From assembly GCA_029262195.1 (NCBI GenBank), contig JAJCZX010000030.1:372001-436000 (forward strand): a stretch of DNA of 64,000 nucleotides, read 5' to 3'. This stretch comes from Gemmatimonadota bacterium. GTDB taxonomy: Bacteria; Gemmatimonadota; Gemmatimonadetes; Gemmatimonadales; GWC2-71-9. Below, piece after piece: positions 10,017 through 57,050 of this stretch (positions are counted from its first letter, which is position 1; every line of letters begins with the position of its first letter). The translations under genes and the position numbers were made by a program. The notes under the pieces were generated by a model. That model saw only the letters and a list, made by a program, of their open reading frames with translations, was not told where the DNA came from and searched no databases.

Positions 10017-10116
10017 TGCGAAAAAAGTAGCACAAAAAGCCAAAGTGGAGAACGCCAGCCGACCGAATAGTGATTATCTTGCCAAAACTCATCTAATAGA
10101 AGGAAAGACAACACCG

Positions 10117-11871
10117 GTGACCGAAACTCCGCGCGCCTCCGAGCCCGTAACCAACGTAGCGCAGTATTTTAAAAGAGCCGAAGAGCTTTTCAGAGAGAAG
10201 TTCGAGATCGAAAGACTTGTGACGGCTACAGCAAACCGCATCCTTTTTTCGGGGCGAGACCGGCTCCTGCTTCGCCGTGTCGCTCTTCGCGTCCATTTGC
10301 AACCTGACACCAGGAGTCGCGCCTGGTTCGAAGCTGAGTTGCGCCTAAAATCCCGATTGGACCACCCCTCGCTCAGAACTGTTTACTCCGCAGGTTATGC
10401 TGACGATTGGGCCTACATAACCAGTCAGTGGGTGGAGGGCGAGAGCCTGGCCGACTCCATGCAAAGAGGCCCCCGTACAATCCCAACTGTCTTGCGCATG
10501 GCCCGCGATCTCTCGGAGGCAATGGAGTACGCACATTCGGAAAATGCCATAATCCGGCGAATCATCCCAACCACTGTGATGTTGGACCGACAGCATCGCG
10601 CGGTAATCACCGATCTCCGGTTCGCGAATGAAGTCCTTGATGTGGCGGGTGAAGAGAACCCCGAGGCCGAACCGTTCCTTGCCCCGGAAGTACGAGGCAA
10701 TAAACGGGGAGATCCCAGCTGCGATATCTACGCAATCGGGGCGATTCTTTATTTCGCCACAACCGGGGCACCGCCAAACCTGGACCCGGACAAGATCACA
10801 CCTCCCAGCGGTCTGCGACCTTCATGCCCGGCGTTCCTGGACAGGGTGATAATGCGAGCGCTCAGCCGAGGGAGGGAAAGACGATACCTCACGGGAGCCG
10901 AATTAGTCGCCGAGATCGCACAGGGGGTTGGTGCATTCGACTTCCATGGTCCCGAAGCTCCAGACGCTTCAGCTCCGGAAAACAAGGATCAGTGGGAGAA
11001 GCGGCTACGACGAGCTCTCGGCGACGACTATGAGCTTCTGGACGAGCTCGGATCGGGCGGATTTGGTCGGGTGTACCGGGTACGAGACCTGCGCCTGGAG
11101 AGAGAAGTTGCCCTTAAGGTCCTTCACCCGCATCTGGCTGCAGAACCGGATGTCGCGGAACGGTTTCAAAAAGAGGCCCAGGTAGCCGCGAGGCTCCACC
11201 ACCCGCACATAGTGAGCATCTTCGATATCAACCAGCGATTTGGGTTCACGTGGTACACGATGGTTTACGTTCGCGGATTGAACCTCAGCAATCTGGTTCG
11301 CATTTCCGGGCCCCAGCCAGCCGACCTGGTCATCAAATTTCTTGAACAGGCACTCGGTGCCCTTCAGGTGGCCCACGATGCCAAGGTGGTACACCGGGAC
11401 CTCAAACCGGAGAATATTTTAATTTCTGACGTCGACGGCAGCATCCAGATTGCCGATTTCGGGTTAGCGTTGGCGCTGCAGGGCTCCGACGGCAACTACG
11501 GTGGCGCCACCTCGCGTTCTGGAACCCCTGAGTTCGCCGCTCCCGAACAACTACTCGACGAGCGAGTCGACGCTCGTACCGATTTGTACTCTCTCGCCCT
11601 GGTTGCAGTCTTTTCGCTGCTCGGCCGCCCTCCCTTCACAGGCCCAACTCCACAAGCCATACTGGCCAAACAAATTGTCTGCGACCTTCCAGACGTCTCC
11701 AAGGAACGAACAGATGTCCCGACTTCCCTGGTGAAGGTGTTAAACTGCGCGGCGGCTCGCGACCCGGACGATCGCTTCCGCACTGCGTTGGAATTCCGGA
11801 ACGCGCTTCAACAAGTACACAAAAAACAGGAATGGCCGATCCCCTGGTTCAGGAGGCTTTTCCAGAGATGA
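10117..11871 (+). CDS. Tandem pseudokinase-kinase (Ser/Thr protein kinase)
   Basis: 584 aa from a GTG at 10117, chosen because AGAAGGA sits 9-15 nt upstream. The longer frame would run into the divergent FHA-protease gene. Residues about 34-270 have a kinase fold but no catalytic residues: the HRD position reads IIRR (145-148) and DFG reads DLR (166-168). Residues about 305-570 form an intact kinase with GSGGFG loop, VALK Lys334, HRDLKPEN (426-433) and DFG (447-449). No transmembrane segment is seen. The stop overlaps the next start as ATGA. Inference: the N-terminal pseudokinase regulates the C-terminal kinase, and the divergent FHA protein is a candidate substrate or reader. Confidence 0.9.
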   Translation: MTETPRASEPVTNVAQYFKRAEELFREKFEIERLVTATANRILFSGRDRLLLRRVALRVHLQPDTRSRAWFEAELRLKSRLDHPSLRTVYSAGYADDWAYITSQWVEGESLADSMQRGPRTIPTVLRMARDLSEAMEYAHSENAIIRRIIPTTVMLDRQHRAVITDLRFANEVLDVAGEENPEAEPFLAPEVRGNKRGDPSCDIYAIGAILYFATTGAPPNLDPDKITPPSGLRPSCPAFLDRVIMRALSRGRERRYLTGAELVAEIAQGVGAFDFHGPEAPDASAPENKDQWEKRLRRALGDDYELLDELGSGGFGRVYRVRDLRLEREVALKVLHPHLAAEPDVAERFQKEAQVAARLHHPHIVSIFDINQRFGFTWYTMVYVRGLNLSNLVRISGPQPADLVIKFLEQALGALQVAHDAKVVHRDLKPENILISDVDGSIQIADFGLALALQGSDGNYGGATSRSGTPEFAAPEQLLDERVDARTDLYSLALVAVFSLLGRPPFTGPTPQAILAKQIVCDLPDVSKERTDVPTSLVKVLNCAAARDPDDRFRTALEFRNALQQVHKKQEWPIPWFRRLFQR

Positions 11872-35457: not shown

Positions 35458-38400
35458 TTAGTCAGAACTAAGGGCCACAATCGGATCCGAACGCGCTGCG
35501 CGAAAGGCCGGAAGAAAAGTCGAGAAAATTCCCGTAACGAGCAAAACTGCAACGACGCCAACGGTGACAGACCAATCAAGGGCATCAACTTTGAAAAGCA
35601 GATCTTCCAGCCGCGTGGCCACAAAAGCACCCAAAAGCAATCCGAGAAGCAAACCCGCCCCGGTAAGGCCCACTCCTTCACGAAGGAGTAATGCGGCCTG
35701 ATCAGCAGTGCGAGCCCCCAGGGCTGATCGTACAGCGAGTTCCCTGCGGCGGCGAGACACTCGATAACTCAACACACTGTATAGTCCCACCCCCGCTACG
35801 GCCAGCGCGAGTACGCCGAATAGGCTGAAGATGGTCGAACCCATTCGCCACGATCTCGTACGTGAATCAAGAAGATCATCAAAATTCTTCACAATTACAT
35901 ATTGACCGGCCGGGAGTGCCGGCTCAATAGCCGCTCTTAACATACCCCCGACAGCAGCCTCCATCTTGCCAGAGGTTTTCACAAGAATTGCAGGGGGGAA
36001 TCGCAAACTCACAGGACCCTGAACTCTATCGGGGCGTTGCACCGCTGGCACATAAACGAGCAGTGTAGGTTCGCCGCTGACGTTGGCCTGTCTCGTGTCT
36101 TCAACAACGCCAACAATCTCAGTGCATCCTCGATCACCGACCTCAATACATTGCCCAATGGCACCATTTTCACCCCATACCAGGCGCTCAAAACGCTCGC
36201 TCACCAGGGCAACTGGAGCGCCCGAGGCGTTATCGGAATCCACGAACAAACGGCCGCTCACGGCATCCAGTCCCGCGGCTCGGAAAAAACCAGCGTCGAC
36301 GGGATTCACGTAAACGCTCTCGGTCAATGCATCGAACTCCTCGCTTCTCCCGGGCACCTCCAGCGTCGCAGTAAACAAAGAATAGAACGGGACCAGTACA
36401 CTCAGGCCCGCAGCCGTTACACCGTTGACGTTCCTGGCTCGTTCGACGGCGTCTACGTAAGGTTGAACGGAAAAGTCACTATCAGAATCCTCCAAGTCAT
36501 TTGACGAAAAATCGACCCGTACGTCTGTAACGATCTGGGCGACGAGCAGCCCTTTGGTATCAAATCCCAGGTCGACTGCGGCAACCTGCCTGGAGCTCTT
36601 GATGAAAAGGCCAGCCCCGATAAGAAGTACTGCCGAAAACCCGACCTGCACGACGACGAGAAGCGACTGGAAGCCGAACCCTCTGTATCCCAAATTCGCT
36701 GTACCAACTTTGAGAGCTGTAAGGACATCGTAGCGACTCGCCAACCAGGCGGGCGCAATCGAAGATATCAAGCCTGATAAAATGGCGACCAAGAACATGA
36801 AAGCGATCACTGGCCCGGCCAAAACACCGGCAGTGTTCGAGAGCCCGGGCAACAGATAGGTGTAAAGAGCATTGCCCGCTACAAATGCGGCCCCAAGCGC
36901 CAATATCGCACCCAAGAGACCCAGGGCTATCCCTTCCCCCATCAATTGGAGAACTAATCGCTTTCGAGACACCCCCAGCGCCAGCCTCACCCCTATTTCC
37001 CTGCGTCTTGACTCAGCCCGAGACAGGAGAAGACTTGCAACGTTCGAACACGCGATGAGTAATACGGCAAGGGCCACCCCCGCCAGCCATAACGTTACAG
37101 ATGCCTCATCGCTCCTTCGCGGCCCTCGCGCCGCGATCAATGAGCTCAACATTATCTTTGCCGTCGCAGGCTCGTACCAGGATAAATCGGCCCGCGCAGC
37201 GCGATGCCGGGCGGTCGCGGCATCGGTGACGGCGACAATATTAGAACCTGGGCTTAGCCGCAAAATGCCCGACGAAAAATATGCGCCACGACTCGAACGC
37301 CAACCAGGAGGGTAAAGACCATCTCCCGCAACGTCCAACGGCAACCAAACGTCAACCCTGGCAATATCAACGCCGCGGAAACCCGGCGGCGTAACCCCCA
37401 CAACACGGTAGTTCCTTTCGGCCAACCGTATCGTCTGCCCGAGCACGGACGTGTCCGCACCGAACTGCCTTTTCCAGAACCCGTCACTAATCACTGCTAC
37501 GGGGTCAGCCACCTCGGCACCACCGAGGCTCCCAAAAAGATTGCCCAGACCGGGGATGGTACCGAGTAACGGAAAAAAATCTTTGCTTACCAATTGCGTA
37601 TTCACGATCTGGCCGGTGTTCCCCATAGCAAACCGTTGTGCGCCAGTGTATACCGCAGCAGCGACCACACCGTCCAAGCCGTCAAAATCTCGGACGTCCG
37701 CGTGGTTAACCCCTGTCACTCGTCGGTTTGTCCCAAATTCGCGCTCAACAAAAATACGTTTTACGCCGTCGGGATTTACGATATGAGGTGGAGGAGATAG
37801 GAAAATCTGGCCGAGTGCCCCGAACATTACTCCGTTGAGTCCGACACCGAGACTTAAAGTGAGAGCCACTCCCACGGCGAACCCGGGGTTACGGCTGATG
37901 CCGCGGAACGAGTCTCGTGCGTTCTGGCGCAAGAGGTCGTACAAGTAAGAGGCTTTCGAAGTCAAAGAGACGAGGTCAACATTCATAGCTCTAAGTCGCT
38001 TTGTGAAGGGAGATGGTTCAGTCGGAGGCGCGGAATGGGCAAGAGGATCGACACGGAGCGCATGCCGAAGCGCAGTTAAGAATTTGCTTATCGACAAATG
38101 GCGCCTGCCTGGATTCGCATCCAAGGCGCGTTCAATTGCCCGTTCAAATCCTACCGGTAGGTCAGGGCGAAAGCTCCGAAGAGATACTGGTCGCTCAAGA
38201 AACTTCTTTTTGATCAGACGCTGCGTTGTGTCCGCCTCAACGGGAGGCCTCCCGGCAAGCATTTCGAATACAACACAGGCAAGACTGTATTGATCGCCGC
38301 GGTGGTCAGCACTGGAGTCACCGACCGATTGCTCCGGACTAGAGTATAGCGGCGTACCACACCCCGATGTTTCATCGGCGGCGAGATGCAAACGGCGGGA

Positions 38401-39102
38401 ATTAAGAGCCAATCCGAAATCGGTGAGCACCGCTACTCCCCGGTGGATAAGAATATTTTCAGGCTTAATATCCCGATGGACCACGCCCTTCTCATGAGCT
38501 AATTCCAACGCGGAAGTAACTTGCGAAAGCACGGACATCAAGCGTTCGATGGTCATCGAACCACGAGTCTCCAGCCAGTCCCGGAGCGATCCACCCTCCA
38601 CCAGTGGCGTGACGCAATAAGCGAACAAGTCGGTAGAGCCCGAGTCCAAAACCGGAAGAATGTGAGGATGCTGAAGACTTGCCATCGTGCGGGTTTCTTT
38701 GGCGAAAAGTCGAGTGGCATCCGAACCCCCGGTAGCGTTGACTATCTTGATCGCCACTTGTCTGCCGTACTTCAAATCCCTCGCGGCATAAACCGTTCCC
38801 GAAGCACCTTCACCAACAACCTTATCGATTGAGTACCGGCCCGACAGGTTTTTCCTGATCTCTTCTTCAAAAAACGGGGAGGAGCGATCCTGTTCGATTT
38901 CAAACAGCTCGTCAAAGGTCAGTCCGAGTCCTTGAAGAAGTTTCTCCCGGGTAAGTGGAGACGGAAATGGGACCTTTCCATTGATGAGATCAGAGAAATG
39001 TCCCTTGGCCAACCCAAACCGCAACGCCCAATGATTCTGGCTAAGGTTTGACCGAACCACTCGGTCGCGGAGAGCGGGGAGGCGAAGGCGGGCTCTATTC
39101 AT
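35458..39102 (-). CDS. HTH - Ser/Thr kinase - ADOP/MacB-type ABC permease fusion
   Basis: 1214 aa in one frame. Residues 1-65 look like an XRE helix-turn-helix (SQNHWALRFGLAKGHFSDLI, LLQGLGLTFDELF). Residues 88-350 are an intact kinase: GEGASGTV, Lys119 in VAIK, HRDIKPEN (209-216), DFG (228-230). From about 400 on comes a duplicated permease with MacB-like periplasmic domains and FtsX-type helices (FAVGVALTLSLGVGLNGVMF; LWLAGVALAVLLIACSNVASLLL with SRRREIGVRLALGVSRKRL; ending with RRRRELAVRSALGAR). That is the ADOP layout, with HTH-kinase in place of its usual prefix domain. No ATPase partner gene is adjacent. Inference: a membrane complex that senses a signal and phosphorylates cytosolic targets or DNA-bound partners. 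Confidence 0.88.
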   Translation of the reverse strand: MNRARLRLPALRDRVVRSNLSQNHWALRFGLAKGHFSDLINGKVPFPSPLTREKLLQGLGLTFDELFEIEQDRSSPFFEEEIRKNLSGRYSIDKVVGEGASGTVYAARDLKYGRQVAIKIVNATGGSDATRLFAKETRTMASLQHPHILPVLDSGSTDLFAYCVTPLVEGGSLRDWLETRGSMTIERLMSVLSQVTSALELAHEKGVVHRDIKPENILIHRGVAVLTDFGLALNSRRLHLAADETSGCGTPLYSSPEQSVGDSSADHRGDQYSLACVVFEMLAGRPPVEADTTQRLIKKKFLERPVSLRSFRPDLPVGFERAIERALDANPGRRHLSISKFLTALRHALRVDPLAHSAPPTEPSPFTKRLRAMNVDLVSLTSKASYLYDLLRQNARDSFRGISRNPGFAVGVALTLSLGVGLNGVMFGALGQIFLSPPPHIVNPDGVKRIFVEREFGTNRRVTGVNHADVRDFDGLDGVVAAAVYTGAQRFAMGNTGQIVNTQLVSKDFFPLLGTIPGLGNLFGSLGGAEVADPVAVISDGFWKRQFGADTSVLGQTIRLAERNYRVVGVTPPGFRGVDIARVDVWLPLDVAGDGLYPPGWRSSRGAYFSSGILRLSPGSNIVAVTDAATARHRAARADLSWYEPATAKIMLSSLIAARGPRRSDEASVTLWLAGVALAVLLIACSNVASLLLSRAESRRREIGVRLALGVSRKRLVLQLMGEGIALGLLGAILALGAAFVAGNALYTYLLPGLSNTAGVLAGPVIAFMFLVAILSGLISSIAPAWLASRYDVLTALKVGTANLGYRGFGFQSLLVVVQVGFSAVLLIGAGLFIKSSRQVAAVDLGFDTKGLLVAQIVTDVRVDFSSNDLEDSDSDFSVQPYVDAVERARNVNGVTAAGLSVLVPFYSLFTATLEVPGRSEEFDALTESVYVNPVDAGFFRAAGLDAVSGRLFVDSDNASGAPVALVSERFERLVWGENGAIGQCIEVGDRGCTEIVGVVEDTRQANVSGEPTLLVYVPAVQRPDRVQGPVSLRFPPAILVKTSGKMEAAVGGMLRAAIEPALPAGQYVIVKNFDDLLDSRTRSWRMGSTIFSLFGVLALAVAGVGLYSVLSYRVSRRRRELAVRSALGARTADQAALLLREGVGLTGAGLLLGLLLGAFVATRLEDLLFKVDALDWSVTVGVVAVLLVTGIFSTFLPAFRAARSDPIVALSSD

Positions 39103-39524
39103 GATCTGGAACCTATTACAGAATCGGCGCGCTGATGTTGCAAAGCTAGGCTAAAAAGCGTTCGTCCACGTTCGTCAGTTGCATTAAGTTGTTGGGAGTC
39201 AACGATTTGAGCTCTCGGCTGGAGACCGGAAACGAAGAATCCACAATCCCGCGCTGTCGGACTTATTTCGTCCGCTGACTGCAGAGAATGTTAATTCTTT
39301 GCTACCGACTCTTAGGACATAGGCACCTGAACCCCATTCTTAGATCACAAACAGTGGGATACGACAAAACGTAGCATTAACGCGGTGTTCTGGGCATTGG
39401 CGTCGTATCTCGAAAGGGCCTTTTAAGCCTCAAGTAGCACGAAACTCACAACATAACTCACAGCATGTTCCTCGTTTCGGCTCCGGAGCATAGTTGTTTC
39501 CTGGGCCAATTCTGGACCGCGAAA
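39103..39524. other. Intergenic region upstream of the kinase-permease fusion
   Basis: 422 nt without a convincing gene. It contains the right copy of the imperfect direct repeat (39432-39467) and a short tandem GTTCGTC motif near 39160-39178. The promoter of the fusion gene should lie in its left part. Confidence 0.5.
39432..39467 (+). repeat. Imperfect direct repeat, right copy
   Basis: 36 nt beginning AAGTAGCACGAAACTCAC, same orientation as 35341-35378. It lies about 60 nt beyond the stop of the large NTPase gene. Confidence 0.6.
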
Positions 39525-42500
39525 TTATCCGACACCGAGCAACGCCAAACGCGGCCGCCAATAAAGCTGGGCCGAGCCGAGCTCCTCTCGACTCAAGGAC
39601 CGAACCGTGACCCCGTTCCACACTTTCACCCTGGAAGCATCACGGACCCCTTTGTCGGGGTCGAAGTCTTCCGGTAGACCATCTCGTACCAATTCCCAGC
39701 CGTCCTGGACATTCATATTCAGGGCCACCAACTCCTCGCTCGACGGCAACGTCCATCGCGGGGGCCTCCATGCTCGGTCAACTATCGTGCTCCATGTGAT
39801 TGGTTCCTGCGGCATGGTAGGCAATGCGAAACCGTTCTTTTCGTCAAGAACCCACACTACGCCCTGAGTGTCATAGCGAAATCCATGAAATCGGCCATAC
39901 CAAGTTAAGATCTCCTGAGGGAAAAAGTGTAAACCTTCCCTCATTCTGGAGACCCTACTAAGCCATATATCAAGTTGGTCGCTAAGTTCACTCGGTCTCT
40001 CAGGCCACGCACGATGTAAGTTTGAGCGCAGGCATACCGCGCCAAATAGGTCCAAGTCGTCGTTGACGATGTTGTCGACTATGTGGGACGCGAATTTGAT
40101 TGAATCACTCGCTGAGTGGCGCTCACACCAGCGTGACCAACGCAAGGCGCAACGCTCCACACCTAATCCCGACGCAACCGTTTTCATCCATTTCCACAAA
40201 GTTTCAGTACCGTCGGGGCCCCAGCCCTCGGTTGACGCAAGGAGAACGTCCCAGGCAGCGATTCCGTGTCCCTTCCCCCATCGGAAAAATTCCTCACTGT
40301 TACGTAGTCGAACGCAGTGAACCGCTACAGCAACGTCCTGGGTGCGTCCGCTAGTTTGTACGTCATCCGCCAGTCGATTTCGCAGTTGTTCGCTGTGATC
40401 ATATAGTCTGTTGATCGGCTCTGCGAAGGCTAGTGTCACGTCGGGGCTCACTTTGGTGGCAACGGTGCAAAGGTTCTGCGCGATGGACCAAGCGGACTCT
40501 TCGTGACCAGATAGTTGCGAAAGGGCGGTGGGGGTCAAGAGGGAGCTGATGGTTTTCGCAAGTCGTGTAGTGGGCATATCTGCGCTACTGATTAGCCAAG
40601 ATATGAGGCTCGCATCTAGGGCGGAGTCCAAAATATTAACGGACCCAGCATCACCTAGGGCATCAATCATCTCCAGAATCGTACCAGATTCTTGGCTCTT
40701 TAATCTTCGGGAATCGAGCACATTGTAGAAGTACACAGCGGCCGTACCGTCCGCCACAAATGCATCCTGCCATTCATAGGCTCCCGACAATCCACCCAAC
40801 CGCCGCATAATGCGCGTCGCCCCACACGCCCGGAGGAGTTGATCACACTGACCAAGCGACAACAGACCGCCTAACCACCCCATGACTGTCGGTGCGTCGA
40901 GAGTGCTTTGCGTCTCAAAACGTCCTTTCCATGACAGAATGCCAAGCCACTCTACAAGTTGCTCTACGGTGATATCGGTGACAGCCTCAAGGGCCTTCTT
41001 CAACTCGTCGATGGTGGCTCCGTTTTCTACCAGGCCGCGCATTCGCTCAAGTTGGGTCGCTGCATCTCCGACAGATGACTTGAAGTCGAGAGGCAACGTG
41101 TCCTGCACGGCGTTGACGTGCCGGCGAACAGCCCCAAGAATTAGATCGCCCTGCGTGGATTCGAGGTTTCTATTGTTGTGGTAGATTGCGCTAAGCAAGT
41201 AAGACGAAAATTCGTCTTGTTTCCCCAACCAACTCCCAACGAACAGATTATCGATCTCGTGTGCGTCCGCATCATCGAACCAACATCGAAGTAAGGCACG
41301 GGCTTCGCTGGGCGTCCACAGTGCGCGATTGACTCGTTGATCCAAAGGCCCCAGTGGCATGTCGGTCAAACTCCGGCCGACCAATACGTAACGGAATCCA
41401 GAGGGAGGATCAGCCTGAAGAAATGATCGCACAACGCTGCGAGCATCTCGACGGGAGGTCAAGTCGTCAAACAGAAATACACATTTTGAAGGTGAGTCTT
41501 TCGCATGGGTTCTGAACGCATCAGCGAATGCGTCCAGCGCAAGGGGGGGGTTCTTGAATCGTAGCGGACATATGTGCTTAAGGAACTCGTCGTCGAACTG
41601 ACCAACCTGTGAGTCCGTGCCGGATTCGAACGTTCGTATAAGCACGTCTAAAGCTGGCCCAGCGACCTCAACCACCACTCGTCCCTGTTCAGCAAGATAC
41701 TCCGCGATGGTGGTTGCGAATTGTGTTTTTCCTGAGCCTGGCGGACCATCAACGGCAACCACCGTGCCCGAGGGATCTCTGGAATTTGTTTCAAAAATGT
41801 CATTTGGTATCCGCTGTCGGAGGATCTCACGTATCGGTTCGAATCGGGCAGCTAATTGTGGGAGCGGGCGCCGTTCGCTCTCAGCTTGGGCTGCAAAGAA
41901 ATAGCCCGATGCAAGCAGGCGGGAGGCTTTGTTTCGATTGAGAGTGTAAATGGCCCCCGCGGGGGCGTGTTCGGGTGGGTCCGTAATTTCGCCGACAGCC
42001 CCCGAAACGCCGGTAGAGGCACGAGTTCTCTCACTATTCTTAACGTCGTCGGAGAGAAATACTTCAAGAACTACACGGGCCCCAGGCGCACGACTACGTA
42101 CGGCTTCGAATGATTGACGCATAGCGTGGTCGAGGTCACCCCGATTACGGATTACCGCGTGCGGAGCGGTGATCCAAAACACCGGCATATGGTCCTGAAA
42201 CTGATTCAATAAGGAAAGCAACTTCCAACGGACATCTAGCCCCCCCTCGCTCGTGTCGCGCCACAGCCGTTGGAGAGACTCTTGGATACGTTCAGGGATA
42301 TCACCGGGTGCTAGATCAAGAAAAACAGTCGGGGCTCCGTCCTTGACCAGTTGCGGGCAGGCGTTGCGTCGCAAATCCATCGGGAGCACCGTTTTTTCTC
42401 CAAAGCTCCTGTCGGCGCGTCGTGAGTTCGACGGGGCCGAAAATTCCGAAGTTAGTTCAGTTCGTGCTAGAAGAGCTTCGCTTCGGAGACGCTCTTTTCC

Positions 42501-42665
42501 GTGTTTTCCGAGCTTCCCTTCTGCAAGGGATTTGAGCAGCACACCGACACCCGCACGGACCTCGCTGTGCCGTTCTAGCCAAATCTCGAGCAGCCATCGA
42601 GCGAGGAAGCCAGCAACGGCAAGGGCCACACCATACAGACCGAGCGGTGACGACAGCGAGGTCAA
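39525..42665 (-). CDS. Membrane-anchored large P-loop NTPase (STAND-like), unknown function
   Basis: 1046 aa from a TTG at 42665 that has GGAGG 6 nt upstream, a convincing non-ATG start. One transmembrane helix lies near the N-terminus (about residues 9-30). Residues 110-210 form an unassigned alpha/beta domain (TVFLDLAPGD, HMPVFWITAPH, ARVVLEVFLSDD). The NTPase core has Walker A GPPGSGKT (307-314), Walker B KCVFLFDD (394-401) and a sensor-like strand RYVLVGRS. A long, mostly helical region follows to about 900. The last 80 residues (PRWTLPSSEELVAL ... RPRLALLGVG) faintly resemble DUF1566 or formylglycine-enzyme-like ends. It lies 368 nt downstream of the larger STAND gene on the same strand. 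No specific family is recognised. Confidence 0.7.
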   Translation of the reverse strand: MTSLSSPLGLYGVALAVAGFLARWLLEIWLERHSEVRAGVGVLLKSLAEGKLGKHGKERLRSEALLARTELTSEFSAPSNSRRADRSFGEKTVLPMDLRRNACPQLVKDGAPTVFLDLAPGDIPERIQESLQRLWRDTSEGGLDVRWKLLSLLNQFQDHMPVFWITAPHAVIRNRGDLDHAMRQSFEAVRSRAPGARVVLEVFLSDDVKNSERTRASTGVSGAVGEITDPPEHAPAGAIYTLNRNKASRLLASGYFFAAQAESERRPLPQLAARFEPIREILRQRIPNDIFETNSRDPSGTVVAVDGPPGSGKTQFATTIAEYLAEQGRVVVEVAGPALDVLIRTFESGTDSQVGQFDDEFLKHICPLRFKNPPLALDAFADAFRTHAKDSPSKCVFLFDDLTSRRDARSVVRSFLQADPPSGFRYVLVGRSLTDMPLGPLDQRVNRALWTPSEARALLRCWFDDADAHEIDNLFVGSWLGKQDEFSSYLLSAIYHNNRNLESTQGDLILGAVRRHVNAVQDTLPLDFKSSVGDAATQLERMRGLVENGATIDELKKALEAVTDITVEQLVEWLGILSWKGRFETQSTLDAPTVMGWLGGLLSLGQCDQLLRACGATRIMRRLGGLSGAYEWQDAFVADGTAAVYFYNVLDSRRLKSQESGTILEMIDALGDAGSVNILDSALDASLISWLISSADMPTTRLAKTISSLLTPTALSQLSGHEESAWSIAQNLCTVATKVSPDVTLAFAEPINRLYDHSEQLRNRLADDVQTSGRTQDVAVAVHCVRLRNSEEFFRWGKGHGIAAWDVLLASTEGWGPDGTETLWKWMKTVASGLGVERCALRWSRWCERHSASDSIKFASHIVDNIVNDDLDLFGAVCLRSNLHRAWPERPSELSDQLDIWLSRVSRMREGLHFFPQEILTWYGRFHGFRYDTQGVVWVLDEKNGFALPTMPQEPITWSTIVDRAWRPPRWTLPSSEELVALNMNVQDGWELVRDGLPEDFDPDKGVRDASRVKVWNGVTVRSLSREELGSAQLYWRPRLALLGVG

Positions 42666-43033: not shown

Positions 43034-46000
43034 CTAGATCTGAATCGGCTGGTATCGAACTCGCTGTCCAGCGTGTACCATGTGCATGTCGACACCGTAC
43101 TTCGTAAGCGCGGTTTTCGCTTTTTCCTGCTCCAGCGAATCCATCTGCGAAATACTTATTATCTTTTGGGATTCGATTTGATTCCACGACCATCCCATCT
43201 TGATTCCGGATTCGCCGCTTACCCACCATCTTTCTTTGATGGGGCTTGAACCGGAGCTTCCAACACCAGCCACAACGACCCAACAATGGGCATCCTTGTC
43301 GTCTGAAAATTCTTTCCACTTTTCCCTATAGTACTCATCCCAAGGGGGAGGTCCCACATCCTTCAGGTGCTTCTGCCAGCTGGTGAGTATCCTAACCTCG
43401 CAATTCGTTACACCTCGAACGAGACGTAGAAGAGCGAGATCTTCAGCCGTAAAATACGGATCGTGAATAAGCAATCGGTCACGGCAGTTGGGCAGCCAAT
43501 TCACAATGAATTCTTCAGCTTCCCTACGGGAATTGGCCCCGAGCACCACACTCGATCTTAGCCCGTTCGACAATTTGTCTAAGGCTTCCCGATCGGCAAT
43601 TCCAGTCGAAGCGCCTCGGCGGCTGACAGCCCTCTCAACGAGCTCTGCGACGTTCAAAACAGCTGCGCACAACGGCACTAGGTGAGCACTCGCTGTGTCG
43701 CTCTGCTTGTACTTGGCTACAATACTTTCTATGGCGAACGAATAAACCGGATGGGCCTCGGTCAAATCTACACCCTTGCACCGTGCCAAGATCGGCAAAA
43801 CCCCGGCCGTATTGATCGCCCCAGCCCTCCCTTCGATCAGGCTGCCCGTGAGGTTTCCAGCAGCGTCCGCCAAGTACTCAAAATCGGTTGGCGCCGCAGG
43901 TGCCGCTTGGGTGGCCTTAAGCCATTTTTTCCCTTGCTCGACGGATGCCTTCCTTTTCTCTGACGCACGTATGGGGTCATCGTCAGTATCAGAAGCCATC
44001 TTCCTCGCAAGCCCCGGATCGATCTCATACGCGAGGTTCACCGCCCGTTCCCTGGCATTCTTAGCCGACCAATAATCCAGTCCTCTGCTTAGGTGTAAGG
44101 CCTTCTCTACGTATTTAGACGCTCGAGTTTTCTTGTACTTGGAAAGGAAATCAGCAATGTCAAGCAATCTCTCCGTCTTGTCGCTTTCGACGGAAATTGC
44201 CTCAACCAATCCATCGATTTCGTCGAACAGCTCTAGGTCACCTGCACACTTGAACATCTGTGCGAGTTGCGTCAACACGAATGCCCGGTCAGCCAAATTC
44301 GGGATATCGCGCCCGCGATCAAGAAGATCAGACGGAATCGAGCCAAGGTGTTGTGAACGAATCGTCTTCAACCAGCCTTCGCAAAGTACGAGATACCCCT
44401 CGTGTTTAATGAAGTCAGGGTTTGGCAGCTTAGCTTGGATGATTTTGCGAAGCGATGACTCTATTCGCTCCTTTTGCGTCGAATTCAGTTCAGATTTGCG
44501 ACCGCCAATGTTGCGACCAACCGAAGCTACTAGGTTGTACAGCTGGCTGTCCTCATAAGTGTAATCGGCGAGATCAACCATCTCGAGTGCCCAATCGTAA
44601 CTCTGTGGGCGAGCTCTCTTGAGATCTACCTCCGAAGCATATGGCAGTGGTGCATTCGTCGTAATGAAATGATGGATACGCGCGATCGCCGATTCCCGTG
44701 CGGGGTATTCCAGTTCTTCAATGCAGTCACGGGCTATTCCACGATGCCACCGAAACAAGGCGGGTGCCGCGATTATCAGGCATCTCTGATAAGTTGCGGA
44801 GTCCAATTCCTTCAAACCGTCGAGAAGAGGGTGGAGCCGATTCTGGACATAAACATTTCCTTTATCCGGATTGACTCCTCCCTGGAGCCTAGTAGACAAA
44901 TCAGTCCAGAGACCGACCTGATCTACCAAGGAGACCGCAGGGTTTTCGATGAGCGCTATCAACCGTTCCTCAAGGACACCATCCCAAACATTCGTGCGCA
45001 TCATGCCAACCGCTGCCGCCACTGCAAGGTCCGCCGAGATGCGGATTGTGCGCGGACCCATTCCCCCCGCTGGAGATTGAGTCTTGAACTGGGCTACCTC
45101 CATCAAAAAGGCTTCCCCGAACCGCCTGTCGCCTTCGCATAACGCACTTACGGCAGCGAACCCAAAATCAAGTTTCGACCAAGGATTGACGATCGCGGCC
45201 CATTCGGCTTTCGCTTTTTCCACGTGGGGAAGGAATTTTTCCGATATTGGGGCATCGTACACCCGCAGCACATAACTTACGAACTGCGCTCGAGCCAACG
45301 ACCGATGTTCCAGGGCCACAATGATTTCGACCAAATGAGCCATTCGGCCCAGTTGGGAGGATTTGTCGAGTTGGTTCGTGTCCTCATATACCAAACGATC
45401 GACAGCAGTGGCGATGGCGCTCGATTTCACCGCTCGATCCCGAATCGAATCAATTGCTTCGAAGATTACCGACCACGACACGCGGGCCCATTTCTGATCT
45501 AGGTGGATTTCAATGATCTCATGGACCAACTCATCGCGCCGATCACGGGTGTTAGCCTGTTGTGCAATCTCGACGGAAAGTTCCGGTGACACTTCTGCTA
45601 AAGCGTTGATGATCGGCTTAAGAACTCGGACGTGATCAAATGTTGCGGCAAGCACATCAGTCAAACATCCCCGAAGTTCGGTTTCTACCTCGGATAAACT
45701 AACCCCCAACGGTTCGTCAGGTTTTTGACACCGCGATTTGACTTCGCGTTGGAGGGCAGCGAGGCCGGCAAGCGCCGCCGCCCGATGATTGGCGACCACA
45801 GAGCTTTCGAACACCTCAAGATATGCGGCTATGACACGGTTGTTAGCAACATCTTCATCGACACCGAATTCGGCCTTAGCCAAGAGGTATTCGAGCCGCA
45901 TCACATCTTGCATCGGTCCTATATCCCGAATCGACTCTCTTACCGCGTCAAATCGGGCCACATAATCAAGAATCGCGGTTTTGGGAAGATTGGGTAAGCA

Positions 46001-47941
46001 TAGCGCAAAGTCACAGTAGTCATCGGCGTTAGGCGTGTATTCGTTTGATCTAACAGCATATTCAAGCGCCTCGTTCAGTACCTTCGTACAGTCGAGATGG
46101 CTTTGGTTCGCTCGAAGCCAGTTCCGAAATACATAAATCGCATCTCGAGAGGAGCCAAGGCTGTCTATCCGATCAGCAATTCCACTGGCTGTGTCGTCCC
46201 GAAAGGACAGAGCAATAGCGGGCAAAAGGGATCTCAGCCGCGGACTAGTGATCTGTTCATGAAAGATGGAAGATCCCGTCTCGTTGTTCCCGAAAAAATC
46301 GGCTTGCAAACTCAGACCGATCAAAACCCTATCGAGGCCGGAGTCCCCTCGCTCTCGTTGTTTCTCCACCAGCTTGAGCGCGAGTCGTTCGTCGATACGG
46401 ATTAGGTCGTGGGCTAGATTGCGAAACTTAGTTCGATGAAGGGGGCGGGTGTGTTTGGCAAGTAGCTCAGCGATTTCGTCGACCAATTCGGTTGGTAGCG
46501 GGGCAGACTTCGCCACGGCGACGCCGTAGGCGGCAAGCATCTCAATCCTATCTTCGAGGCGACGAACGGATCTGGCTACCGCCAGGCTCTGATCTGGTTG
46601 TCCAATATCCACAAGCGCCTGGATTTCCGCGCGATCCGTTTTCGTATACCCAAGTTCGTTAAAGGCTGAAACAGTAATAGCGAACCTAGACACTTCTTCA
46701 ATTCTATGGCTGCGTTCCGCCGCCTCAAAACCGACTGTCGCGACCGAAACAACCGATTCCAGCGAAGGGGCATCTCGAACTATTTCGCTCAATTGCTCGT
46801 CTCTGAGGAACTCCAAAACGCCTTCATAGTCGCCAGTTTCATAGAACAAACGTGGTATCGCTGATAATTCTTCCGCGTTTTCGGCAGTCAGTTTGAACGT
46901 CACGTATTTCTGAAGAACTTCGTCGTAGATATCGTTAAGTTCTTCCTTGCCAAACCGCCGGAAAGCTTCATTCACGAAACTCACCGGTTCAGCATTGTCC
47001 GTTCCCCCAACAATAAACCAATGAGTTCGGACCCATTCGCGGACTTGCTTTTCGTTCCCGGCGAGACAAGTTGCAAGCTCCGCAATAGAGAGACGCTGTC
47101 CAAGGGAAACGCAGCAAAGAAATTCCCGGAATTCAGGGGCGGAAATTTCGGGCACGTTCCACGCCAATCGGATCAAATGAAGAAGCTCGCGTGGCGGCGC
47201 ATCCAAAACCTCGTCAACAGAGTGGTCCTCGTCGAGAAGTTGTGAAATAATAGCGAGGTGCCCAGGAAGGCCTCCACAGTGTTCGTAAATTCTTTCGCTA
47301 TCCTCCTTGCTCAGCTCTATATGATGAGTCAAAAACTCGCGTGTCTGAGGCAGGTTAAACGGTGTCAAACTTTGGATCCGAAACTTGCTAAGCGACGTCA
47401 CTTCAAGAACCTCATCCGTCGGGCCCTGCGTGATTATCACGCCAGTGTGCCTCGAAGGGGGAGGGAGAAGGCCAATTATCTGTTGAACAACATGCTTTTC
47501 ACTTTGCACCACGTGCTCAAGCCCGTCGATAATGAAAAAGAATTTTGACCCCTCCCTAATTGACCGTTGCCCTGCCTCGTTATAGAGGCGTTGCAGAAAG
47601 ACCTGGTCTACCACGGCCGGGCCGGGGGAAGGTTTGTCTGGAAATAACAAATACTGCATCTGGCAGGCGATGTCGTATAGGACCATCTCAGGCGACCGCC
47701 CCAAACGACTTTCCCCCGAGACGAACGCGCCGATGGTGGTTGCCGGGTGCCTAGCAGCGAATTGCATTAGGACTTCAGTCTTTCCGGACTGCGGCGCGCC
47801 CTCAAGAATTACAAAATTTTGCCTCGTCAGGAGCTGCTCAAGAGTGAGCAGTATGCTCTCTCGAGAAACGGGATTCTCTATCGCCAGGGGTTTGCTGGAA
47901 CATTTCGCGAGCGGGGTAATCGATTTGGCCAGAGTCATCAC
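43034..47941 (-). CDS. STAND-like NTPase with long helical repeats and C-terminal PLD-like domain
   Basis: 1635 aa from a GTG at 47941, preferred because GGAGG sits 8 nt upstream (ATG at 47938 or 47956 are alternatives). An N-terminal NTPase has Walker A GAPQSGKT (about 48-55), Walker B FFIIDGLEHV (Asp139), a sensor strand GVIITQG and a CGGLPGHLAIIS motif like the GxP of STAND/AP-ATPases. About 1100 residues of helical, TPR- or ARM-like repeats follow. The last 160 residues look like a phospholipase-D-type fold (LLIHDPYFTAEDLALLR, CEVRILTSW, RWWVSGESGIKMGWSWNQ), but the catalytic HxK is replaced by KER. The architecture recalls bacterial NLR-type defence proteins with the effector at the C-terminus. 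G+C looks lower than in flanking tkt. Confidence 0.75.
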   Translation of the reverse strand: MMTLAKSITPLAKCSSKPLAIENPVSRESILLTLEQLLTRQNFVILEGAPQSGKTEVLMQFAARHPATTIGAFVSGESRLGRSPEMVLYDIACQMQYLLFPDKPSPGPAVVDQVFLQRLYNEAGQRSIREGSKFFFIIDGLEHVVQSEKHVVQQIIGLLPPPSRHTGVIITQGPTDEVLEVTSLSKFRIQSLTPFNLPQTREFLTHHIELSKEDSERIYEHCGGLPGHLAIISQLLDEDHSVDEVLDAPPRELLHLIRLAWNVPEISAPEFREFLCCVSLGQRLSIAELATCLAGNEKQVREWVRTHWFIVGGTDNAEPVSFVNEAFRRFGKEELNDIYDEVLQKYVTFKLTAENAEELSAIPRLFYETGDYEGVLEFLRDEQLSEIVRDAPSLESVVSVATVGFEAAERSHRIEEVSRFAITVSAFNELGYTKTDRAEIQALVDIGQPDQSLAVARSVRRLEDRIEMLAAYGVAVAKSAPLPTELVDEIAELLAKHTRPLHRTKFRNLAHDLIRIDERLALKLVEKQRERGDSGLDRVLIGLSLQADFFGNNETGSSIFHEQITSPRLRSLLPAIALSFRDDTASGIADRIDSLGSSRDAIYVFRNWLRANQSHLDCTKVLNEALEYAVRSNEYTPNADDYCDFALCLPNLPKTAILDYVARFDAVRESIRDIGPMQDVMRLEYLLAKAEFGVDEDVANNRVIAAYLEVFESSVVANHRAAALAGLAALQREVKSRCQKPDEPLGVSLSEVETELRGCLTDVLAATFDHVRVLKPIINALAEVSPELSVEIAQQANTRDRRDELVHEIIEIHLDQKWARVSWSVIFEAIDSIRDRAVKSSAIATAVDRLVYEDTNQLDKSSQLGRMAHLVEIIVALEHRSLARAQFVSYVLRVYDAPISEKFLPHVEKAKAEWAAIVNPWSKLDFGFAAVSALCEGDRRFGEAFLMEVAQFKTQSPAGGMGPRTIRISADLAVAAAVGMMRTNVWDGVLEERLIALIENPAVSLVDQVGLWTDLSTRLQGGVNPDKGNVYVQNRLHPLLDGLKELDSATYQRCLIIAAPALFRWHRGIARDCIEELEYPARESAIARIHHFITTNAPLPYASEVDLKRARPQSYDWALEMVDLADYTYEDSQLYNLVASVGRNIGGRKSELNSTQKERIESSLRKIIQAKLPNPDFIKHEGYLVLCEGWLKTIRSQHLGSIPSDLLDRGRDIPNLADRAFVLTQLAQMFKCAGDLELFDEIDGLVEAISVESDKTERLLDIADFLSKYKKTRASKYVEKALHLSRGLDYWSAKNARERAVNLAYEIDPGLARKMASDTDDDPIRASEKRKASVEQGKKWLKATQAAPAAPTDFEYLADAAGNLTGSLIEGRAGAINTAGVLPILARCKGVDLTEAHPVYSFAIESIVAKYKQSDTASAHLVPLCAAVLNVAELVERAVSRRGASTGIADREALDKLSNGLRSSVVLGANSRREAEEFIVNWLPNCRDRLLIHDPYFTAEDLALLRLVRGVTNCEVRILTSWQKHLKDVGPPPWDEYYREKWKEFSDDKDAHCWVVVAGVGSSGSSPIKERWWVSGESGIKMGWSWNQIESQKIISISQMDSLEQEKAKTALTKYGVDMHMVHAGQRVRYQPIQI

Positions 47942-48404
47942 GATACACACCTCCATTTAGTTTCCCATGCATGGCTGGCACCCGAATGCAAACAACGCAA
48001 GCGGACGTACAGTGTCAAACCATTAACATATGGCCGGACAAAAGCGACGGGTCATCCTCGTTGGGCTGGAAATGGTTAACGGGGCTCCGCTCCAACTCAA
48101 TATCGTTTTTCTTCTTGCTCCTGAGAACCAAGAAGCATTCCAATCCCTGAAAAAACACTGGCAAATCCGGTCCCAAACTATCAAGGTGGTCAACCGGCCC
48201 AACGGGTCCAACCGTCAAAACCGTGCGGTCGGTTTTTGTTCGACGAATGGCTGAGACGGGCATATGGCGTGGCTGAAATCGAACCACAACGGGCTGGCCT
48301 CTGGCATCCGATCCGCAGGAATAGGATTCGACCCGATGCCGCGAAAGGAGTGAGCGGCGAGGACTGAATCCCATTCAGGAGTCAAGGCAACCTTCTATCC
48401 GATT
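47942..48404. other. Intergenic region between transketolase and STAND genes
   Basis: 463 nt. A 119-codon minus-strand frame (48015-48374) has no recognisable domain or ribosome site and is not called a gene. A small perfect hairpin (CTGAAT, CCC, ATTCAG at 48364-48378) follows the tkt stop by about 27 nt but lacks a U-tract. The left end should carry the promoter of the STAND gene. Confidence 0.45.
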
Positions 48405-53952: not shown

Positions 53953-54309
53953 ATGAGCTATTCGAACCGATCGACCACCAAGCCTCTGACAGGCACCGTT
54001 TTCTACGTCCTCCTCGCCCTGGCCGAGACGCCAAAGTACGGACTCGGAATAGTTCAGGAAGTAGAACGACAAACAGGGGGCGAAGTTAAGCTCGGCCCCG
54101 GCACGCTTTACAACATCATCAAGAAGATGTTGGAGACAGGTTTGATCGAAGAGGTGTCCGCTGAACACCGGCCGATGGATGACGACCCCCGGCGCAGGTA
54201 CTACGGAATCACCGAAGATGGACGGTTTGCGTTCGAATCAGAGGCCTCTCGATTGGCATCGCTTGTCAGCGCCGCCAAATCAGTCGGTGCGTTAAAGGCC
54301 CGGCCATGA
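53953..54309 (+). CDS. PadR-family transcriptional regulator
   Basis: 118 aa with the PadR winged-helix domain: TGTVFYVLLALAETPKYGLG, EVKLGPGTLYNIIKKMLETGLIEE, and RRYYGITEDGRFAFESEASRL. The C-terminal dimerisation helix is short, as in the subgroup that accompanies ADOP permeases. The stop overlaps the permease start as ATGA, so the two are coupled. It probably represses its own operon. Confidence 0.92.
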   Translation: MSYSNRSTTKPLTGTVFYVLLALAETPKYGLGIVQEVERQTGGEVKLGPGTLYNIIKKMLETGLIEEVSAEHRPMDDDPRRRYYGITEDGRFAFESEASRLASLVSAAKSVGALKARP

Positions 54310-57050
54310 ACATTCGAAACCTCCGTTTTTCTCGCGCCCTGTTGGGACTCTACCCGGCAAGTTTCAGATCAGAGTTCGGCACAGAATGGATGCAGGTTAT
54401 TGAGTGGCGGGCCGAGCAGTACAGTCGGCAGTCTTTCGGGCTTCTCAAGTTCGCCGCCGTTATTGCCAGAGACGCCATCATATCACTGCCAATTGCACAC
54501 GCACGCACGTTTTTCGGCAGCAAGAAACAAAGCTCGCAATCGGCGAATCCTGCGGGAACCACCGGGGGAGGAGACCAACCACCTCAACGTAGCAGCGGAG
54601 GAAGAAGGCTGGAGTCGTTGCTCGCCGACATCAAGTTTTCGGTACGGGGATTGGTCAGGACACCGGTTTTCACAGTAGCGGCAGTCATGTCTCTGGCACT
54701 GGGAATAGGCGGCAACACCGCCATTTTCAGCGTAGTCAACGCTGTCCTACTCAAGCCCCTACCCTACCATGAGCCAGAGAACCTGGCCATCATCTGGAAC
54801 GAATTCCCACAGGCTGGTTTATCCCGCCTCCCAATGTCGGGGGTGGAAATCGCCGCGCTCCGGGAACGCGATGATGTGTTCGAGGACGTTGGTGGAGTCT
54901 GGGCAACCAGCCGAACAGTCCTCTCAGAGGACCGGTCCTCCCAGGCGTCTACCGGTCTGGTAACCATCAATTTTTTCTCCGTCCTGGGAGTAGGGTTGAA
55001 TCTCGGAAGCGGTTTTTCGAGCGAGCCGCAGTCCGGGACGGGAAGACAGGTGATCATCAGCCACGAATTCTGGAGTCAACACTACGGAACCGATCCCCGT
55101 GTACTGGGCCAATTGCTTAACATCGGTGGCCGGGAGCACCAGGTCGTTGGAGTCCTTCCCGCGGGACTGAAGTTCTTCTTTCCCACCGATGCCGGGATAC
55201 CGGAGCGGCTTGAACTCTACACGCCCCTGCCCACCGACCTGACAGTGCTACCTGTGGCCCAACATTTCCTCAGAGTCGTTGCGCGCCTGAACCCGGGACG
55301 TACGGTTGCCCAGGCCCAGGAAGCGGCAATCCGTGCCTCTGAGGAAGTCAAACAAGCCTACACAGAGCTGGCGGATACCGGGGATCGATTCACGGTTGTT
55401 CCACTGAAAGCCGATTCGGTTAGAGCCATCAGACCGGTCCTACTCGTGCTGTTGGCTGCCGTCAGTCTTGTGTTGCTGCTGGCAGCGGTCAACGTTGCAA
55501 GCCTTGTGCTGGCAAGATCATCCACCCGTCGGTCTGAATTTGCCGTCCGCGCCTGCATCGGTGCCAGTAGGAAACGATTACTTCAACAGCTCTTAACTGA
55601 GAGCGCACTCCTGGGAATCATCGGGAGTGTAACCGGAATCAGCCTCGGTACTCTGGCAGTCAACACGCTGTGGACGGCCCGACCACCCGGCCTTTCGCGA
55701 ATCGACGAGATCGGTCTCGATCCCACAGTCCTTACTTTCTCGGTGCTGGCCACCCTACTGGCTACCGTGTTGTTCGGGCTGGCTCCATTGTCGCAACTCC
55801 GACACGCTTCACCCGCAGGGGCCTTGAGATCCCACGGATCGATGGACAGGCGCGCTCAGAATCTCCGCCGGGCCATGATCGTTTCAGAGATCGGATTGGC
55901 TCTCGTTCTTCTCATCGGCGCAGGCCTGCTCGGGAAAACTCTCGCCGGGCTGCAGCAGGCGCAGGTCGGATTTGACCCTGACAACAAACTCACTCTCAAG
56001 ATCCCCCTGTCGTCGAGCCGTTTCCCCACGGCAGAACAGAAAACTGACCTGTCGCGGCAGATCTCTCAGACCCTGAGCGGCCTGCCCGGAGTGCTGTCCG
56101 TGGGCGCCAGCTCGCACGTTCCATTCATTGGCTGGGCAAACTGGGGTGACATAGCGGCGCCCGAGGGAACCGATGAAGCCAATCGTTCCGCATTCCAGTT
56201 CGACCATCGATCGATTACGCCGGGTTACCTGGAAACAATCGGAGCAAGCCTGATTGACGGACGGTTTTTCAGTGAAGTTGATCTCGAAGGAACAGAACCG
56301 GTAGTAATCATTGACGAAACCCTTGCCCGCAGAGCCTTCGGCACCGACAATCCGATTGGGAAGCGAATCCAGGCAACCCGATACGCTGGGGCGGGAGAAT
56401 TCGAACCAACGTGGGCCATCGTTGTCGGGGTCGTTGGGGACATTAGAGATCGATCGCCTGAAGTACCCTCCGGCGGTCAGATTTTTTGGCCATTCTCCCA
56501 GAGCGCTCGATGGGAATTGACTTATGTGGTCCATACGGCAGGCAACCCGACCGCAATTGTCAGCGCAGCGAGAGACGCGGTGCAACAAATACCGGGCGAG
56601 CTGGCTCCATCAGATTTCGTTCCAATCCGCGATTACCTGGATGCAACCACCGCGGGAGCACGGTTTACGACATTGTTAGCAACGCTTTTCTCAACCATGG
56701 CACTGATTCTTGCGATGCTCGGCCTTTACGGTGTTATCAATTATACGACAACCCAACGAGCTCGCGAATTTGGCCTTCGCATCGCATTGGGAGCAAGGAG
56801 TGTGGACATTCTCCGCGATGTGCTGGGCGATGGACTCAAGACGACAGCAGCCGGAATCGCCCTAGGCATCGGCATAGCGCTCGTTTCGATGCGGTTCATA
56901 GCATCGCTCCTGTTTGGAGTGAGCCCGACGGATATATCAACGTTCATGGCTGTCTCAGCAGTGTTCCTCCTGGTCTCTCTCGGTGCCAGCTACATTCCGG
57001 CCCGCAAAGCAATCCGGATCGACCCGCGTGAGGTGTTGAAGGCAGAGTGA
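54306..57050 (+). CDS. ADOP-family duplicated ABC permease (MacB/FtsX-like)
   Basis: 914 aa. An N-terminal permease-prefix domain (LLGLYPASFRSEFGTEWMQV) and linker precede two MacB-like halves, each with a first TM (VFTVAAVMSLALGIGGNTAIF), a periplasmic domain and FtsX helices (VLLVLLAAVSLVLLLAAVNV with SSTRRSEFAVRACIGASRKRL; later FSTMALILAMLGLYGVINYTT with RAREFGLRIALGAR). No ATPase gene adjoins it, normal for orphan ADOP permeases. Next to PadR it probably acts in envelope stress or mechanotransmission. A G-rich array begins about 4 nt after its stop. Confidence 0.93.
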   Translation: MNIRNLRFSRALLGLYPASFRSEFGTEWMQVIEWRAEQYSRQSFGLLKFAAVIARDAIISLPIAHARTFFGSKKQSSQSANPAGTTGGGDQPPQRSSGGRRLESLLADIKFSVRGLVRTPVFTVAAVMSLALGIGGNTAIFSVVNAVLLKPLPYHEPENLAIIWNEFPQAGLSRLPMSGVEIAALRERDDVFEDVGGVWATSRTVLSEDRSSQASTGLVTINFFSVLGVGLNLGSGFSSEPQSGTGRQVIISHEFWSQHYGTDPRVLGQLLNIGGREHQVVGVLPAGLKFFFPTDAGIPERLELYTPLPTDLTVLPVAQHFLRVVARLNPGRTVAQAQEAAIRASEEVKQAYTELADTGDRFTVVPLKADSVRAIRPVLLVLLAAVSLVLLLAAVNVASLVLARSSTRRSEFAVRACIGASRKRLLQQLLTESALLGIIGSVTGISLGTLAVNTLWTARPPGLSRIDEIGLDPTVLTFSVLATLLATVLFGLAPLSQLRHASPAGALRSHGSMDRRAQNLRRAMIVSEIGLALVLLIGAGLLGKTLAGLQQAQVGFDPDNKLTLKIPLSSSRFPTAEQKTDLSRQISQTLSGLPGVLSVGASSHVPFIGWANWGDIAAPEGTDEANRSAFQFDHRSITPGYLETIGASLIDGRFFSEVDLEGTEPVVIIDETLARRAFGTDNPIGKRIQATRYAGAGEFEPTWAIVVGVVGDIRDRSPEVPSGGQIFWPFSQSARWELTYVVHTAGNPTAIVSAARDAVQQIPGELAPSDFVPIRDYLDATTAGARFTTLLATLFSTMALILAMLGLYGVINYTTTQRAREFGLRIALGARSVDILRDVLGDGLKTTAAGIALGIGIALVSMRFIASLLFGVSPTDISTFMAVSAVFLLVSLGASYIPARKAIRIDPREVLKAE

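Follow-up and report, generated by a model that had tools for sequence, protein, structure and literature searches.

A gene on the minus strand of a 64,000-nucleotide stretch of a Gemmatimonadota genome (the whole stretch is hereafter called the window; the draft genome spans 4.21 Mb in 42 contigs and is 92.6% complete) encodes a protein that is probably a membrane switch, reading the cell surface and controlling genes that include its own. We consider this probable because a helix-turn-helix (HTH) domain, a Ser/Thr kinase and a sensor-like permease of the ADOP type are joined in one chain, and because genes of this family share a sequence upstream of their start codons. An initial annotation of the window had proposed a one-component transmembrane switch; this stands as the best reading, now with a candidate operator upstream, and what it did not foresee is that the protein belongs to a recurrent family of two phyla, that the family includes a form without the kinase and that its permease is interchangeable.

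The three-part architecture named in that annotation was confirmed by an intact open reading frame (ORF), by profile matches and by structure prediction. The ORF is unbroken over 1214 amino acids (aa), from the ATG at 39102 to the stop at 35458 on the minus strand. A Pfam search with the full protein returned Pkinase at residues 90-303 (E 9e-45) and two stretches each of MacB_PCD and FtsX, and no HTH. When the first 69 residues were searched alone, they matched HTH_31 (E 0.005; 17.5 bits, below the Pfam gathering cut-off of 27), a model matched at E up to 1 by 11/11 family members (best 4e-7), 7/11 of which also matched HTH_19 (best 1e-8). AlphaFold2 predicts a confident five-helix fold here, with a predicted local distance difference test (pLDDT) score of 88-95 in ten-residue blocks of residues 1-70. 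Foldseek placed this model with probability 1.00 on the DNA complexes of SinR (3zkc, E 0.015) and 434 repressor (2or1, E 0.056), and the model also resembles CylR2; the E-values are modest (0.005-0.06) because the domain is small. The HTH family profile gave 19 matches up to E 1 among PDB sequences, led by a designed DNA binder (8tac, 7e-4), AcrIIA15 (8e-4) and a prophage protein (3b7h, 0.002), with XRE regulators ranking lower.

The kinase, matched by Foldseek to PknB (6i2p, 33% identity), has the complete motifs of a eukaryotic-type Ser/Thr kinase (Gly loop, VAIK Lys, alpha-C Glu, HxDxKPxN, DFG and an APE-like motif) and, judged from these, is predicted to be active, as the initial annotation had supposed. 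The remainder of the protein aligns from residue 391 to 1213 with positions 1-802/803 of the NCBIfam ADOP model TIGR03434, and is thus a full-length, internally duplicated MacB_PCD/FtsX permease. We term it ADOP-type because its score of 569 bits does not reach the curated cut-off of 622.3, which at least four fused paralogues exceed (871, 808, 771 and 765 bits; 67 of 116 candidates were scored). Eight long membrane-type helices are seen in the predicted model of the permease half, a count taken from the model and not from a topology program. In joining a DNA-binding-type domain to predicted transmembrane helices, the chain has the architecture of a transmembrane transcription regulator.

The fusion recurs. 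Seven HTH-kinase-ADOP genes are present in this genome, and the same domain order is found in metagenome-assembled genomes (MAGs) of two phyla, including two chromosome records (CP070666 and CP070792). An assembly artefact or chance fusion, to which the fragmentation of the draft might lend some credit, is therefore ruled out for practical purposes, and misassembly at positions 37950-38100, a concern of the initial annotation, is excluded by this recurrence (7 copies here and 25 distinct HTH-kinase sequences, 22 of which include the permease in the available stretch) rather than by read coverage. Altogether we collected 50 distinct HTH sequences, 25 with a kinase, 24 with an ADOP permease and no kinase, and one weak. 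A profile search of the window's phylum gave HTH matches in 9/298 genomes: 16 strong matches in 8 genomes, and a single weak match in a 231-aa frame. Of the strong matches, 15 have frames 1176-1397 aa long, and the frame of the other has 444 aa, its corresponding public record (L091) carrying a run of N after the kinase. In the phylum of G299 (titled Acidobacteria), 10/396 genomes matched, six strongly and four weakly in short frames; there G313 carries at least 15 copies (L145-L159), all kinase-less HTH-ADOP genes and several with a weaker form of the upstream repeat described below. L104 and L107 are likewise kinase-less, with the HTH followed directly by the ADOP. A scan over 84,980 species, a lower bound since exact short peptides were required, found at least 19 loci; every one is in a MAG whose title says Gemmatimonadota (or a subgroup) or Acidobacteriota, and phylum names here follow the titles of matching public contigs. 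The counts from the profile searches are lower bounds as well, because only the best 4, 20 or 15 candidates per genome were scored, depending on the search (20 in the search of 298 genomes). The architecture is thus not the widespread and already characterised one that the initial annotation had allowed for: strong matches were obtained in the 8/298 genomes of the phylum given above, and no account of it was found in the open-access literature.

Sequence comparison indicates that the HTH and kinase are a conserved cassette placed on differing, distantly related ADOP permeases. Mean pairwise identity among 22 HTH-kinase-ADOP proteins (L119 was left out of the alignment) is 58% for the HTH and 54% for the kinase, compared with 27% and 25% for the two periplasmic domains and 15% for the linker; among the seven paralogues of this genome, the corresponding values are 53% and 51% for the HTH and kinase and 23% and 21% for the periplasmic domains. 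We placed the permeases of 21 HTH-kinase proteins on a tree of 108 ADOP rows (L092 and the short L119 and L147 are not in it), where they are interspersed with ordinary ADOPs: 11 changes are needed, at least 5 of them forced by starred branches. A single clade of 20/21 fused permeases was rejected by the approximately unbiased (AU) test (log-likelihood difference 647, p-AU 2e-68), from which L007 was omitted for its long branch and in which the outsiders were 20 of 62 ordinary ADOPs, picked after the tree was seen. A single origin of the whole protein is therefore rejected for its permease half. The window permease itself scores 448 and 446 bits against the ordinary ADOPs L037 and L006 and 445 bits against L031, its closest fused relative in another genome, and is no nearer to its fused paralogue L002 (251 bits) than to ADOPs at large. 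The window copy, L031 and L032 fall in one starred set of eight rows together with five ordinary ADOPs, and may share an older fusion. Spearman correlations of distances are 0.50 between HTH and kinase, 0.27 between HTH and permease and 0.46 between kinase and permease. Sensors that vary on an output that stays constant are the pattern of a receptor family.

Among 55 kinases (the truncated L102 was left out), 24 HTH-linked ones form one group with a single free kinase (SH-like approximate likelihood-ratio test, 94; not starred), and when the window copy and the free kinase are set aside, the remaining 23 form a starred group at 95. Three kinase-ADOP proteins that lack the HTH (L056, L057 and L070) have kinases outside the HTH-linked group, and given these three, kinases probably joined ADOPs more than once. 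The free-standing kinase (L180:1139-2083, G000:C31), which is from this genome, is an HCD protein of 314 aa, and the start of the adjoining gene looks ion-channel-like by eye.

The second line of evidence is the upstream sequence. A Gibbs search of the 200 bp upstream of the seven paralogues returned one motif with a score of 96, compared with 73-75 in eight shuffled sets (12 restarts for the real set and 4 for the shuffles). It is a direct repeat, CGAAC-N5-CGAACACTTT, and is present in both phyla. Apart from it the seven upstreams are almost unalignable (pairwise local scores 15-32, n=21), and they have no inverted-repeat operator in common. The half-sites lie one helical turn apart in 22/25 HTH-kinase genes, the other three having a gap of 7-8, and the second half precedes the start codon by about 60-115 bp in 23/25 genes and by about 175 and 190 bp in two, distances that are accurate to some two codons. 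With a leave-one-out matrix, 24/25 HTH-kinase upstreams scored above the 99th percentile of shuffles (median 26.6 bits), as opposed to 1/58 of the ordinary ADOPs, whose median was -8.0 and whose maximum was 10.2 even when 800 bp were scanned (p 6e-13; 58 of 62 were scored, the others being too short). The kinase-less HTH-ADOP genes stand between these, with 10/24 above the same percentile (median 2.8, p 2e-7), and bear a weaker variant such as TGAAC-N5-CGAGCACTTT in L145. Opposite-strand medians of the matrix were -6.0 and -8.4; the weak L081, in its 231-aa frame, was not included in the motif counts. By these scores the repeat follows the HTH and not the permease. From its position upstream of nearly all HTH-kinase members we infer that the HTH would be the domain that binds it, which makes operator binding a hypothesis that the sequence supports. 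A sigma70-like promoter at a fixed distance from the operator was also considered; it is convincing in L001 and L003 only and irregular in the others.

We scanned 31 genomes for the repeat with at most one mismatch and found 28 sites, 25 of them in the 16 genomes with the HTH and 3 in the 15 without it; the same pattern read backwards gave 6 sites in all. By their coordinates, 14 of the 25 sites precede HTH-kinase genes, two precede DUF4932 genes and nine lie elsewhere. When two mismatches were allowed, this genome had 21 sites compared with 7 control matches, and the 16 two-mismatch sites comprise the operator of L007, one site at window position 33912 inside an aminotransferase ORF, 13 inside other ORFs of at least 80 aa and one before an M61 peptidase gene (L213:1429; G000:C6:27928). 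The M61 gene and receptor gene L060 have homologous promoter blocks of 71 bp, within which the M61 site lies (local score 83; maximum 25 in 300 shuffles of that pair). Twelve other M61 loci had no site, a weak negative, as for several of them the longest ORF taken is not clearly the M61 gene. In two acidobacterial genomes an exact operator precedes orthologous DUF4932 lipoprotein genes (L200:3210 and L201:5496) whose proteins are 54% identical; around the site, their upstreams align locally over no more than 27 bp. Of 14 other genomes searched for DUF4932, 13 had no match and one (G219) had a weak one.

These distributions bear on what the HTH does. In RodZ, an HTH serves as a protein interaction domain, and the HTH studied here could likewise not bind DNA, in which case the repeat, having travelled with the cassette, would be part of the promoter or be bound by some unrelated regulator. 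Swapping of the cassette could indeed bring promoter DNA along, as the promoter block common to the M61 gene and a receptor gene would suggest. We nevertheless think this quite improbable, as the repeat persists over two phyla though the paralogue upstreams can hardly be aligned otherwise, a degenerate form of it also accompanies the kinase-less HTH genes, and the DUF4932 genes of two genomes retain the site with so little else in common upstream. Somewhat less improbable, though still unlikely in our view, is that the HTH merely autoregulates and that the kinase, acting on other proteins of the cell, is the working output upon ligand sensing, so that two functions are only loosely linked in one chain. 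Consistent with this, four of the sites with at most one mismatch in this genome precede the receptor genes themselves and the fifth lies inside an ORF, and the VAIK Lys, the HxD Asp and the DFG are retained in all 22 aligned members. However, kinase-less HTH-ADOP proteins are common (24 found) and the HTH is their only recognised cytosolic output domain, and a few genes other than those of the receptors do bear the operator.

A link between the kinase and the HTH is suggested by Ser48, which is present in 25/25 kinase-linked HTHs and in 10/24 without a kinase, the rest having Gly, Glu, Ala, Thr or further residues (Fisher 3e-6). From this distribution Ser48 is the best candidate for phosphorylation by the adjoining kinase. 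The catalytic loop reads HCD in 21/22 full-length members and HRD in the window copy alone, and the HTH of the window copy has Ala32 and Val44, where 24/25 members have Ser and 23/25 have His, respectively.

In ordinary ADOPs, the connection to transcription takes another form. Of the 92 near-complete ADOP matches that we count in the 4.2 Mb of this genome, 85 are ordinary and 7 are fused; six short or partial ADOP-like matches are not counted. A PadR match lies within 900 bp upstream on the same strand for 66/85 ordinary ADOPs, and conversely 66/78 PadR matches are paired in this way; an ordinary pair within the window is the ADOP at 54306-57050 with a PadR match at 54007-54237. No upstream PadR match was found for the 7 fusions of this genome (Fisher p 8e-5 versus 66/85) or, with a home-made PadR profile, for any of 46 HTH fusions overall with more than 500 bp upstream. 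Thus, ordinary ADOPs have their regulator encoded alongside and acting in trans, and the fusions carry theirs within the chain. Frame length, measured from stop to stop, follows the same division: 66/66 PadR-paired ADOPs have at least 877 aa, and 16/19 unpaired ones have 807-856 aa (p 1e-14). The three long unpaired frames (C14:208196, a partial match; C36:46729; C24:85133) have a PadR match near by coordinates, in a geometry outside our rule. We read long and short frames as the presence and absence of an N-terminal extension. L006, the nearest ordinary ADOP of this genome, has permease prefix domain 1 (NF038403, 44 bits, cut-off 30); four further ADOPs were scanned, and a match to prefix domain 1 or 2, below the cut-off, was obtained for two of them and none for the others. 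No prefix model was among the best 25 of 28 families matched by the window protein at E up to 1, which bears out the initial annotation's view that HTH and kinase take the place of the prefix domain.

To our knowledge, ADOPs are a very large family of orphan permeases that have no assigned function and no ABC ATPase partner in cis. It is conceivable that the ADOP half is a working transporter of the MacB/LolCDE kind, with an ATPase supplied in trans and with the kinase regulating transport directly. The FtsX/MacB fold would fit such a role, and the best Foldseek match of the permease is E. coli YbbAP (9ge6), YbbP being the permease of an ABC system. We hold this to be very unlikely, as the nearest ABC ATPase match (PF00005) is more than 9 kb from each of the seven fusion genes, and a transporter leaves the HTH and the operator unexplained. 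Conserved neighbour genes that might be targets were not seen by eye beside these seven genes. A wider proposal, which we advance tentatively and regard as somewhat doubtful, is that ADOPs as a whole are not transporters, and instead are receptors of permease shape that serve transcription circuits. The N-terminus in the cytosol would be a socket, holding either a PadR-partnered extension or, in cis, an XRE-type head to which a kinase relay may be added, and swaps of the head would rewire receptors to a common operator.

For the fused protein itself, we favour with moderate confidence a membrane receptor-regulator in which a permease sensor acts through a kinase on a fused XRE-type head that sits on an operator common to the paralogues. 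The sensor would be the periplasmic MacB-type domains together with an ADOP-type permease that has no nearby ABC ATPase gene. Whatever signal it senses, a change in the permease would reach the kinase by way of the cytosolic N-terminus, and the kinase would then set the activity of the DNA-binding head, probably by phosphorylating its own HTH, with Ser48 as the likeliest residue. The head would bind CGAAC-N5-CGAACACTTT ahead of its own gene, the paralogues and a few other genes, and might raise or lower their expression. Since the head would bind the repeat at its own gene and at the paralogues, paralogous receptors with different sensors would act on one operator.

Several observations weigh against this receptor-regulator. 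The repeat could belong to another factor, the L005 upstream (1/25) has a degenerate site only, 14/24 kinase-less genes are without a strong site, and the leave-one-out matrix still contains close relatives. Nine of the 25 sites of the genome scan precede neither HTH-kinase nor DUF4932 genes, and targets beyond autoregulation are few and unshared (M61 here, DUF4932 in two acidobacterial genomes, none before M61 elsewhere). The Ser48 statistics ignore relatedness. The correlation between kinase and permease distances means that not all members have been reshuffled, and some permeases therefore moved along with the cassette. The full-length model is of moderate confidence (pLDDT 75, predicted template modelling score 0.57). 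Finally, the window copy departs from the family in its HRD, its Ala32/Val44 and its long kinase branch, and because of these deviations it could be drifting.

Among known systems, transmembrane transcription regulators such as ToxR, CadC and BcrR are closest in logic, having a DNA-binding head and a membrane sensor in one chain. Hybrid members of that class also bear kinase domains; the common additions named in a census are HisKA, HATPase_c and the response regulator, with no Ser/Thr kinase among them, and the word 'permease' is absent from its main text (PMC10269533). By contrast, the parts fused in the window protein are a kinase of the PknB type and an entire duplicated permease. PadR-paired ADOPs with an N-terminal extension resemble it in their type of permease, in the cytosolic N-terminal socket and in having a transcription regulator as partner, and differ in that this partner is a separate PadR; here it is an XRE-type HTH, with or without a kinase, within the chain, with no PadR and another upstream motif. 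BceB, too, is a permease of the FtsX superfamily. Among cases in which a permease drives a kinase, the nearest is the Bce module (BceAB-BceRS), where the permease forms a sensing complex with the kinase (PMC10314905). In that module the histidine kinase is a protein of its own and an ABC ATPase takes part, whereas the window protein has a Ser/Thr kinase in cis and no ATPase gene nearby. With PknB and Stk1 it has in common the kinase fold and a cytosolic kinase tied to an external sensor; however, its family has an HTH in front, a duplicated permease as sensor and HCD in most members. The PASTA kinase model of PknB/Stk1 (NF033483) scored 227 bits against a cut-off of 450 and over the kinase part only, and PASTA repeats are absent from the Pfam match list of the protein.

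If the proposed mechanism is true, the protein would be a counterpart, built on a Ser/Thr kinase, of the one-component membrane regulators. In the fusions, an ADOP permease is tied to a DNA-binding head for which a concrete candidate operator can be named; for ordinary ADOPs, the correlation between PadR and frame length provides a tie to transcription too. ADOP genes make up an unusual share of some genomes, and the question of what they do thereby becomes directly testable.

Table 1. Features of the HTH-kinase-ADOP gene and its upstream region (window coordinates).
Feature	Position	Strand	Residues and remarks	Basis
Whole gene, HTH-kinase-ADOP-type permease	35458..39102	-	1214 aa	ORF, Pfam, NCBIfam
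Cro/C1 (XRE-type) HTH	38893..39102	-	1-70; helices 8-17, 22-29, 33-40, 49-59, 63-66	
Ser48 codon, candidate phosphosite	38959..38961	-	directly ahead of HTH helix 4	
PknB-like Ser/Thr kinase	38053..38853	-	84-350	Pfam, alignment, Foldseek
Kinase motifs of the window copy			G-loop 96-104, K119, E136, HRD 209-211, DFG 228-230, SPEQ 255-258	
Variable juxtamembrane linker	37933..38052	-	351-390; mean identity 15%; low pLDDT	
ADOP-type duplicated permease	35461..37932	-	391-1214	NCBIfam, model, Foldseek
First periplasmic MacB-type core domain	37123..37794	-	437-660; family mean identity 27%	
Second periplasmic core domain	35887..36549	-	about 852-1072; mean identity 25% over 861-1085	
Candidate operator, direct repeat CGAACGTGGACGAACGCTTT	39155..39174	-	second half starts 62 bp before start codon	
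Sigma70-like promoter, TTGCAA-17-TGTAAT	39115..39143	-	just downstream of candidate operator; weak, spacing inconstant in family	

The gene is adjoined in the window by genes for two large NTPase-like proteins on the minus strand (39525-42665 and 43034-47956). The first of these matches AAA_16 just below the cut-off, and PADLOC gave weak matches for it and none for the second. A tandem kinase protein with two Pfam Pkinase stretches is encoded at 9904-11871 on the plus strand; its first stretch is without HRD by eye and is pseudokinase-like.

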